From positions 186,001 to 250,000 of the forward strand of contig JABTTW010000003.1 in the NCBI GenBank assembly GCA_015075745.1: 64,000 bases of DNA, in the 5' to 3' direction. This DNA comes from Planctomycetia bacterium. Lineage in GTDB: Bacteria; Planctomycetota; Phycisphaerae; UBA1845; UTPLA1. The translations under genes and the position numbers were made by a program. Under the pieces are notes generated by a model. That model was not told where the DNA came from and did not search any database. It saw only the letters and a list, made by a program, of their open reading frames with translations. How positions within the stretch are numbered: the first letter of the stretch is position 1; each line of letters opens with the position of its first letter. Shown one piece after another: positions 761-59,820 of this stretch.

Positions 761-863
761 AAGGTGACAATAGGCGAAAAAAGTTTTTGAAGGCGTTTGT
801 AAGCGCTGTGGCGGGCACGTGTTGGGGCGCTTCGCGGAAAAGGTGAAAAAAGGGGCCAAGGGG
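761..863 (+). repeat. Dispersed repeat family A, copy 1
   Basis: Begins AAGGTGACAATAGGCGAAAA, continues through a block ending GTGGCGGGCACGTGTTGGGG and closes with GTGAAAAAAGGGGCCAAGGGG-like sequence. The first block recurs inverted at 55841-55870 and the GTGTTGGGG block recurs at 962-1050, 45857-45960 and inverted at 55685-55770. Function unknown. Confidence 0.7.
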
Positions 864-961
864 AATGCAAAGGCGGTGACACATGGCGATGCGGGGGCCG
901 CAGGTGGCCCGTCGCCAAACGGCAAGCCGCGTCCATGCTCGCGCGGGAAGCGAGGAAGCTA

Positions 962-1050
962 AAGTGACATAAGGTGACACAGCGGATTTTTTTCGGTTGC
1001 AAGTCTTGTGGCGGGCGTGTGTTGGGGTGGCGCGCGTTTTCGGTGAAAAA
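962..1050 (+). repeat. Dispersed repeat family A, copy 2
   Basis: Contains two spaced GGTGACA-type motifs (AAGTGACATAAGGTGACAC), then a T-run, TTGCAAGTCTTGTGGCGG, GTGTGTTGGGG and GGTGAAAAA. By eye it matches the inverted copy at 55685-55770 at roughly nine of ten positions over about 70 bases, which is far above chance. Confidence 0.75.
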
Positions 1051-45720: not shown

Positions 45721-46487
45721 ATAGACCTCCTCTGAAAAAACTTTCGCAGCCCGACGCGAAAATGTGCCCCGACCCGCAAGAAGGGCCCCGGTCTTCAGCC
45801 CGGGCGGTTCGGCATCGACCAGTTGCTCCGGATTTCGACCGACACGCATCAAAACCCAAGGTGACATAAGGTGACACAAACCTCGCGGGGATTGTGCCAA
45901 CGCTTGTGCCGGGCATGTGTTGGGGCAATTCGAAAATCCGGCGGTTTTTGGGTGAAAACGGCCTGACACCGGGAGGAGCTAAGGGTTTAAGGGACGAAGG
46001 GGGCGAGGGCTTGGAAGTGGACATCGCGCGCTCCCTCGCGAGGCATAAGGGGATTGAACTCCATTCGTGAATGCTTGCTCCGTGTGCGCGCCTTGGGTGG
46101 GAGCTTGAATTGTTTGATTCATCGTGAGACATGATTGGCGTGAAGTGTTGGACGAGGCTGATCGCACGATTGCACTGAGCATGGGAGAGGCCTTCAAAAA
46201 GTGGCATGTCCGCAATGCCGCCAGTAGCATGTCCCGGATACCCCCAGCCAATTTCGAGCGGTACCGATAACTTTGAAAATCGGATGAACGTTGTTCATAA
46301 CCCGGAGGGTCAGGCGGTATGATGGTGGAATGTCGCGCATCGGCGTAGACGGCCAAAGGCCACCTGGGAAATCTCGGAGAAAAAAACAGTGGCCTTACAG
46401 GGGCGCCCGTTGCCATCGATGATGGTCAAGAATGACCGCCCGTATCGGGAACACCTGACGGATCGGACGCCAGCACAGGAGAACCGC
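45721..46487. other. Repeat-bearing non-coding region before the DUF11 gene
   Basis: Roughly 770 bases without a convincing gene. It contains family A repeat copy 3 (45857-45960), purine-rich AAGGG tracts near 45980-46010, a tail (46075-46135) like that at 1165-1223, and GGCATGTCCGCAATGCC, a small hairpin, at 46203-46219. Open frames are low in conserved features. Confidence 0.55.
45857..45960 (+). repeat. Dispersed repeat family A, copy 3
   Basis: AAGGTGACATAAGGTGACAC is followed by a GC-rich insert, CGCTTGTGCCGGGCATGTGT, TGGGG and GGTGAAAACG. Order and spacing of blocks match copies 2 and 4; the middle is more diverged. Confidence 0.7.
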
Positions 46488-47765
46488 ATGCAGCGCATTG
46501 ACGCCTCACATTTGTTCGAGAGACCTTTTTCAGTCCTGCGGGGCCCATCCTGTGCGGCGGCCATTGCGGTCTTCGTATTGTCGGCAGCATCAGGCGTTCG
46601 GGCGCAGTCCGCCGACATCTTCCCGAGTCAGACCATCGATCCGGCCGACGTGGTCTGCGGCGATACCGTCCAGTATACGCTGACGGCCACAAACAACGGT
46701 CCGGACAATGCGTCCACAGTCGTCATGACGAACGATCTGCCGGATTGTGTCGCCTTCGCTGGTTTTGTCAGCATTACTCAGGGCAGCGCGAGTCAAGGCG
46801 CCGGCGTCATCACGACGAACTTCGGCACGATCAACACGGGGGCCAGCGCCAGCCTGGTCTTCAACGTGACCGTTTCGGTCGGCTGCACGCCGTCGTATGA
46901 GAATGTCGTCAGCGCCACCACCACCACGAATGACCCCAACCCGGGTAACAACGTCTCCACACTTGGCACGCTGGTCGGGTGCGGCGATCTGACGGTGGAA
47001 AAAATTGGCCCCGCGGACGGCGTCTGCGGCGACAGCGTCATTTATCTGCTCATCGTTCGGCAGGCCGGGCCGGGGGCCGCCGGCGAGGTTATGCTGGTCG
47101 ATGACCTGCCTGACTGTCTCACGGAGGTCTCGTGCTTCTCCAGCCAGGGAACCTGTACGGTCGGCGCGGGGAATGTCGTAACGGTCGAGCTGGGAACAAT
47201 CGACGCAGATGCATCGGCGATCGTGGGCATCAGCGCAACGCTTGGTGCAGCGTGTGCGCCGTCAATCAACAATTCCGCAGAGGTCAGCACGCCGGCGCCG
47301 GAGCCGAACCCGGCCAACAACACATCCGCGCCCGTGACCACCAACGTGATCTGCGAGATCGGCGCCTGCTGCCGGCCGGATGCGCCGTGCGACCTGCGCA
47401 CTCAGACTGACTGCGAGACACTCGGCGGGACCTTTCAGGGCGTGCTGACGGACTGCGCGGATTTCGACAGCGACAACGACGGAATCTGTGACGCGTTCGA
47501 CAACTGTCCCAACGCATCCAACGCAGACCAGGCGGATACCGACGCCGACGGAGTCGGCGATGTGTGCGACGGCTGCCCGAACGACCCGGGCAAAAGCGCG
47601 CCCGGCGTCTGCGGCTGCGGTGTCGTCGACAGCAACAACATGGGCGACCCGTGCGGCGGAGCGGCAGCACAACCCCTTCCGTGCGGCGCTTGCGGCGTGG
47701 GAATTCAACCGGCTATGATGTTGATGTTGCCGATCCTTCTTCGCCGAAGGCGTCGATGCAATTGA
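46488..47765 (+). CDS. DUF11/thrombospondin type 3 surface protein with arginine-rich C-terminal anchor
   Basis: A 425-residue secreted protein. The signal peptide ends near SGVRAQ (about 36). Two DUF11-type domains follow (about 40-165 and 170-290), each with CGDTVQYTLTATNNGPDNAS-like or CGDSVIYLLIVRQAGPGAAG segments and closing in NPGNNVS or NPANNTS. A cysteine-rich stretch leads into thrombospondin type 3 calcium repeats (FDSDNDGICDAFDNCPNAS, DTDADGVGDVC). The C-terminus PCGACGVGIQPAMMLMLPIL then RRRRRCN looks like a cysteine-plus-helix-plus-arginine sorting tail. AGGAG seven bases upstream supports ATG 46488. Confidence 0.85.
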   Translation: MQRIDASHLFERPFSVLRGPSCAAAIAVFVLSAASGVRAQSADIFPSQTIDPADVVCGDTVQYTLTATNNGPDNASTVVMTNDLPDCVAFAGFVSITQGSASQGAGVITTNFGTINTGASASLVFNVTVSVGCTPSYENVVSATTTTNDPNPGNNVSTLGTLVGCGDLTVEKIGPADGVCGDSVIYLLIVRQAGPGAAGEVMLVDDLPDCLTEVSCFSSQGTCTVGAGNVVTVELGTIDADASAIVGISATLGAACAPSINNSAEVSTPAPEPNPANNTSAPVTTNVICEIGACCRPDAPCDLRTQTDCETLGGTFQGVLTDCADFDSDNDGICDAFDNCPNASNADQADTDADGVGDVCDGCPNDPGKSAPGVCGCGVVDSNNMGDPCGGAAAQPLPCGACGVGIQPAMMLMLPILLRRRRRCN

Positions 47766-55527: not shown

Positions 55528-55684
55528 CGGGGTTGCAGTCGGCTCAGTCGCTCTCGAATGAAATCAAACGGCGCGCACGGCGAGCAAGTGTAGACATGCG
55601 GGAGGCGATACCGGCATGCTCGGCACGCAGATAACAAATCCACGAAATGCAGATTCCGATTCTCACGCGCACTTTCCAAAAAAC

Positions 55685-55770
55685 CACCTAAAAGTCGCAC
55701 CACCCCAACACATGACCGCCACAAGAGTTGCAACCGAAAAAAATCGCGTGTGTCACCGTATGTCACCTTC
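55685..55770 (-). repeat. Dispersed repeat family A, copy 4
   Basis: On the minus strand: AAGGTGACATACGGTGACAC, a T-run, CGGTTGCAACTCTTGTGGCG and GTCATGTGTTGGGGTGG. Nearly the same as copy 2 at 962-1050. Confidence 0.75.
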
Positions 55771-55818
55771 GACTTTGCAGGACTTGCGCGCGATCAGCGC
55801 GCTGGTCTTCACCCTGGA

Positions 55819-55846
55819 CCCCTCTGCCCCTCGATCCCTCGGCCCC
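55819..55846. repeat. 8-bp period C-tract/G-tract repeat, block 1
   Basis: CCCC or TCCC recurs every eight bases (55819, 55827, 55835, 55843). Four G-tracts on the minus strand. Confidence 0.7.
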
Positions 55847-55890
55847 TTTTTTTTCGCCTATTGTCACCTTCGATTTTGCAAGAGTTGCGC
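55841..55890 (-). repeat. Dispersed repeat family A, copy 5 (partial)
   Basis: On the minus strand: GCAACTCTTGCAAAATCG then AAGGTGACAATAGGCGAAAA, matching the start of copy 1, and leading straight into GGGGCCGAGGG-type tandem repeats. Confidence 0.6.
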
Positions 55891-59747: not shown

Positions 59748-59820
59748 AGCGGCGTAGCTCAGTTGGTAGAGCAAGGGATTCATAAGCCCTGGGTCGCCGG
59801 TTCAAGTCCGGCCGCCGCTA
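59748..59820 (+). tRNA. tRNA-Met (CAU)
   Basis: 73 bases fold as a tRNA: acceptor AGCGGCG/CGCCGCT, D arm GCTCAGTTGGTAGAGC, anticodon loop TTCATAA, variable loop GGGTC, T arm GCCGG-TTCAAGT-CCGGC. The 3' CCA is not encoded. Base 1 pairs with 72, so it is not the initiator. An elongator tRNA-Met is most likely; a lysidine-modified tRNA-Ile with CAU anticodon is not excluded. One mismatch (A31-G39) closes the anticodon stem. Confidence 0.93.

Follow-up and report, generated by a model that had tools for sequence, protein, structure and literature searches.

MITEs are non-autonomous elements with precise ends, and BOX elements and neisserial NIME arrays are mosaic intergenic repeats. Attachment sites of the IntDOT/Tn916 type combine direct-repeat arm-type sites with a core in which conserved arms surround a variable overlap of 5-7 bp, the coupling sequence. 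REPINs, inverted doublets with a hairpin fold, are mobilised by REP-associated tyrosine transposases (PMC3116915, PMC8266576). Here we describe a family of repeat islands that is partly like each of these systems. The islands were analysed from a 64,000-nucleotide stretch (hereafter the window; G000:C3:186001-250000) of G000, a 5.01 Mb Phycisphaerae genome in four contigs. With a probability of about 0.55, we interpret them as a discrete gene-less mobile element with two unlike ends that has been spread within one Phycisphaerae genus by a trans-acting enzyme.

Results

The original prediction had singled out five copies of a GGTGACA repeat with a common block order in the window, and all five were recovered in place with their blocks in that order. 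It also described a tail common to two sites (1165-1223 and 46075-46135), which is real and corresponds to an exact second motif that we call END (1161-1181 and 46071-46091, both on the + strand); the third site has END as well (55571-55591, − strand). Three features had been missed: the tail marks the element's real second end, the copies often stand in facing pairs, and the family is restricted to one genus, with species-specific bodies. Because END closes each group of copies, the window contains three islands rather than five separate elements. Island 1 (761-1181, + strand) consists of a variant unit starting at 761, a REP-like module (~909-930), a standard unit starting at 961 and one END (ATATTTGCTCCGTGTTCGCGC, 1161-1181, + strand); the outer end of its END-proximal unit is AAAGTGACATAAGGTGACACA (961-981, + strand), with two GTGACA words 10 bp apart. 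Island 2 (45858-46091, + strand) is one standard unit with its END and runs from the outer end AAGGTGACATAAGGTGACACA (45858-45878, + strand) to ATGCTTGCTCCGTGTGCGCGC (46071-46091, + strand). Island 3 (55571-55870, − strand) comprises a variant unit starting at 55870, a standard unit starting at 55769 and the END ACACTTGCTCGCCGTGCGCGC (55571-55591, − strand), and it faces island 2 over 9.5 kb. Among the five copies, the second, third and fourth begin with AAGGTGACATAAGGTGACACA or a one-base variant of it, whereas the variant start AAGGTGACAATAGGCGAAAAA opens the first copy (position 761 onwards) and the inner inverted one (up to ~55870). Elsewhere in the window we noted its sole tRNA gene, a tRNA-Met at 59748-59820, and coding repeats at 47460-47630, in the TSP_3-like region of a DUF11 protein, which have dozens of matches in the sister genomes.

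The dispersed family with a fixed block order turned out to be real and genome-wide, G000 carrying over 100 copies of a short intergenic element with two exact, unlike ends. According to the pattern searches from which our copy numbers derive, GGTGACATAAGGTGACACA is present in 123-144 copies in the 5.0 Mb of G000 (reversed pattern, 0), GGTGACAYANGGTGACA has 144 matches with ≤2 mismatches versus 0 for the reversed pattern, and END, ATNCTTGCTCNNYGNNCGCGC, has 108 matches with ≤1 mismatch versus 1. GGTGACATAAGGTGACACA is the commonest repeat in 519 kb sampled from G000, a 16-mer of the GGTGACA family ranking first among words of that length. We worked out the anatomy on 80 loci retrieved with the GGTGACA pattern, another 20 retrieved with END and 20 stretches each 20 kb long. 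Most loci had been retrieved with the motif under study; genes were called with our own codon model, on genomes that are partly metagenome-derived. A unit starts with AAGGTGACA, the full outer end AAGGTGACATAAGGTGACACA (variants ..ATATAGTGACACA and AAGGTGACAATAGGCGAAAAAAG) being made of two GGTGACA words 10 bp apart, and continues through TTGCAA-TCTTGTGGCGGGCATGTGTTGGGG, GTGAAAA and optional modules to END. When units were anchored on the middle block, a GGTGACA start was found with ≤2 mismatches on 131 of 133 distinct units (exact on 98); 20 of the loci behind these units had been fetched by END alone and most by the start motif. Optional modules include CGTCGAAA repeats, GGGGCCGAGG repeats, a 100-bp module and some REP-like palindromes, and most of them are rarely seen farther than 700 bp from an island; sequence that close makes up 15% of what was examined. 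Each island contains one to five units, all on one strand and stacked in tandem ahead of what is typically a single END, and the element is ~200-600 bp long with no genes of its own. In their ordered blocks, variable number of modules and tandem stacking in spacers, the islands are like BOX elements and NIME arrays; they differ in that each array is closed by one END, with its invariant arms and hypervariable core, and in that neighbouring arrays face each other.

An intergenic location had been claimed for all copies, and each of the 42 islands in long stretches indeed falls in predicted intergenic DNA, with one also overlapping a predicted gene start. Convergent spacers are enriched for islands, which have no fixed orientation to neighbouring genes. 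The idea that they are 3′-UTR or terminator elements linked to a particular gene strand was rejected, as the bias is mild (26/42 arrays share the strand of their upstream gene). The view that no described element has this layout was borne out by searches that returned no match in Rfam and none to plasmids, phages or viral contigs; on these results, the exact ends and the intergenic location, a decayed IS end or a relic of a coding gene was rejected. We also considered that the islands might specify a structured non-coding RNA, for instance one read outwards from END, the direction in which END precedes the head-cluster genes described below. This is very improbable, as 133 units gave no consensus fold on either strand, and a window copy folds as RNA no better than shuffles (z 0.71 and −0.35). 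The separate family of the sister species G001 gives a weak RNA-fold signal, on the opposite strand. With neither a conserved, covarying structure nor an Rfam match, assignment to a structured RNA family was rejected.

Comparison of copies revealed that what lies between the two ends is copied as a block. Copies that are 83-90% identical sit in unrelated flanks; for the most similar ones (84-90% over ~200-420 bp), the flanks are mostly at chance identity. For nearly all of 177 pairs, END is exactly where similarity halts, and on the outer side it stops within ~20 bp of AAGG. The divergence profile across the element is a step function. Copies at L016, L033, L035 and L038 belong to larger segmental duplications that extend past END. 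Discrete copies in unrelated flanks are typical of MITEs and IS ends, and like MITEs the element is non-autonomous and has precise ends. Unlike TIR-type MITEs, it has no terminal inverted repeats: the outer end AAGGTGACATAAGG and the inner end CTTGCTCNNYGNNCGCGC differ, and only one of them has a variable core. As a further point of this comparison, no target-site duplication was visible by eye in 77 flank pairs.

END has the layout ATNCTTGCTC-NNYGNN-CGCGC, in which the arms CTTGCTC and CGCGC are invariant and the six-base core is hypervariable. Among copies with bodies at least 85% alike, core divergence reaches 0.21-0.47 in one grouping and 0.23-0.55 position by position, compared with 0.126 for the body, 0-0.01 for the END arms and ~0.5 just beyond END. 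The fast core recurs in the independent family of G001, in which three core positions differ at 0.46-0.66 for a body divergence of 0.079, two others being low. Correlating the END core with its flanks gave only weak neighbouring-base effects. Since a neutral spacer cannot outpace its surroundings severalfold, either homogenisation keeps the bodies alike or each round of copying brings a new core. The hypervariable core hints at a recombination junction and, because it goes with the flank and not with the body, strand exchange may take place within END; the fast core could alternatively be explained by gene conversion acting on the bodies. Conserved arms around a short variable overlap are also the hallmark of tyrosine-recombinase attachment sites, and the arm-like repeats of the element together with the END core recall the IntDOT/Tn916 type. 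The element differs from these sites in that the core arms are not mutual inverted repeats, no integrase was found attached and ~110 copies are present.

We observed a contrasting distribution of the two ends among relatives. Pattern searches found the outer motif neither in two other genomes of the genus nor elsewhere in the taxonomic family, whereas END is present in both of these genomes (29 and 9 matches with ≤1 mismatch) and drops to control level outside the genus. These sister species, G001 and G002, carry other bodies on the same END, at sites largely different from those of G000: G001 has its own family of ~290 bp terminating in END, and G002 a third family. Short reading frames in the G001 body are probably not genes, being open by composition and broken in some copies. 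Many single-locus copies share the grammar only (an A-tract, words at 10-bp spacing, ~100 bp, END), and repeat words are phased at 10 bp in all three species. One orthologous spacer measures 2.6 kb in G001, where it is occupied by a gene and by an array whose END points towards that gene, and ~50 bp in G000 and G002; this is the only clean filled/empty site, and its insert contains more than the element. A G002 array lies between rluB and pyrD, where the orthologous spacer of G000 has no array, and a gene order common to G001 and G002 is interrupted in G000 at the L176 island. Seven genes beside sister arrays also adjoin arrays in G000, which is above our chance expectation, and some sites may therefore be old. 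A body-less END was also seen in all three species between the genes of a conserved divergent pair with no family match (L141:2525, L119:1019, L195:1500).

All three species have a Mu-like head cluster of seven genes, and the reverse complement of END, GCGCGCACGNNGAGCAAG, lies 59-67 bp upstream of its terminase gene as a single-copy, body-less motif. The cluster, which encodes terminase, Portal_Mu, a Mu-like protease, a minor capsid protein, gpT, Gp36 and Gp37, occupies L180:13728-19700 and L181:1-1109 in G000 (G000:C1, ~2408.7-2416.1 kb), and others were found at L237, L238, L239, L240 and L264. Related forms of END precede the head cluster in other genera (L238, L240, L242, L264), and an END-like motif occurs again before the protease in several clusters. 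A search across the order with CGNRACGNNGAGCAAG says nothing on this point, since this pattern excludes the genus's own form GCGCGCACG. Seven-gene clusters stand alone in five loci flanked by differing host genes. Of 65 good genomes in the order, 62 carry Portal_Mu, mostly in single copy, and none of 14 controls does. A phage structural cluster that is vertically conserved and has no replication genes fits a gene-transfer agent (GTA); no tail genes were found in the head cluster. Its obvious reading is a domesticated head module or a gene-transfer-agent candidate, and a limited literature search returned no planctomycete report of such a module or GTA. END was rejected as a general host promoter given that its matches with ≤1 mismatch are almost all islands.

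The sharing of END with the head cluster bears on the alternative that the islands are fixed regulatory or boundary sites. The GGTGACA repeats and END would then bind host proteins and the bodies would be homogenised by gene conversion; END would serve the islands and the Mu-like head cluster alike as operator or promoter, and selection would keep the islands in place, for example as boundaries around accessory genes. Motifs that stay nearly invariant while bodies drift would agree with such a role, as would the conservation of END upstream of terminase in the three species and, in related form, in other genera, yet exact copying into unrelated flanks would not. Likewise, 10-bp phasing in three species and some shared orthologous neighbours are set against large differences in copy number, turnover of sites between species and the lack of a fixed orientation to genes. 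On balance we consider fixed sites doubtful and favour the gene-less mobile element.

Neighbouring ENDs most often face each other. In a list of END pattern matches to which a few ENDs read from fetched loci were added, neighbours within 5 kb are facing in 12 cases, in the same direction in 3 and back-to-back in none, and those within 15 kb comprise 17 facing and 2 back-to-back pairs (permutation p = 5e-5). Facing pairs often bracket accessory genes: they enclose genes for IS200-like TnpA, PLD and HNH nucleases, AlkD-like proteins and surface proteins, and at L176:9745-11654 two DNA_alkylation (AlkD-like) genes and a DUF1801 gene lie between two facing islands. When the cargo of three pairs was compared with the sister genomes, L162 and L169 gave no DNA match, and part of the L176 cargo matched elsewhere in G001 only. 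Islands 2 and 3 of the window were rejected as a cassette because the genes that they enclose are core genes conserved in the genus, which indicates that a facing pair need not delimit a cassette. The closest relative of a facing island is not its mate; the two are thus not fresh inverted copies, which dismisses a composite transposon formed by recent inverted duplication.

No transposase other than the IS200-like TnpA recurs near the islands. G000 has 12 Y1_Tnp genes compared with 5 and 3 in the sisters; most of the best-scoring ones are located 150-270 bp beyond an END, and three lie between two facing ENDs. This excess and proximity are what could be expected if the islands were REP-like elements mobilised by the IS200-like TnpA (RAYT) beside several of them. 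Like REP/REPIN sequences (PMC3116915, PMC8266576), the islands are short, intergenic, clustered and high in copy number, contain the genome's most abundant word and have a TnpA nearby. Unlike them, they have two different ends, lack a palindrome, show no inverted doublet in their consensus and fold as DNA no better than chance (z −1.05), whereas the TnpA unit folds strongly (z −4.85). This unit also has its own hairpin ends, GCCCCAACGGGGC ... GGCGCCCCTACGGGGC, and exists away from islands (L161), and two unrelated TnpA subfamilies are involved. Mobilisation of the islands as REP-like elements is consequently quite improbable, and TnpA/RAYT is probably not the mobiliser because its own ends differ. 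The IS200-like TnpA element (150 aa) was observed at L040:945-1690, L084, L150 and L161:14648-15097, often inserted just beyond END, and shorter derivatives with its ends GCCCCAACGGGGC/GGCGCCCCTACGGGGC at L165:12841 and L168:8808.

Discussion

Our analysis suggests that the islands are likely a mobile, gene-less and precisely bounded element, and that movement by a site-specific recombinase acting at END is possible. This interpretation is consistent with an outer motif confined to G000 and an END common to all three genomes, with the copying of the intervening sequence but not of the flanks, and with the turnover of occupied sites between species. On the contrary, no transposase or recombinase gene is tied to the family, END is also a conserved body-less motif, which a transposon end need not be, some copies are plain segmental duplications, and the facing pair of the window encloses core genes. 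In the mechanism that we propose, the GGTGACA words would be protein-binding sites and END the site joined to the target. Strand exchange would occur within END by a tyrosine-recombinase-like or other site-specific reaction, and a putative enzyme supplied in trans would move the non-autonomous element.

A bolder version, which we hold to be unlikely, is that the islands represent a new class of attachment-site-like mobile DNA, in which GGTGACA arm sites and an END core would be joined by a recombinase to varied targets. Facing pairs would capture and turn over accessory genes, and END would be shared, and possibly co-controlled, with a Mu-like head module that has been domesticated and may represent a GTA. 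If our interpretation is right, the islands provide a type of gene-less mobile element that has neither inverted repeats nor hairpins, and the hypervariable core between invariant arms becomes a measurable sign of the mode of DNA joining. The element would also mark the entry points of accessory genes in the genomes of an uncultivated lineage, and would link elements of this kind to a motif that controls a phage-head cluster carried by nearly all good genomes of the order. As a separate observation on this cluster, G000 has a second, more divergent Portal_Mu gene at G000:C2:625083-626150.
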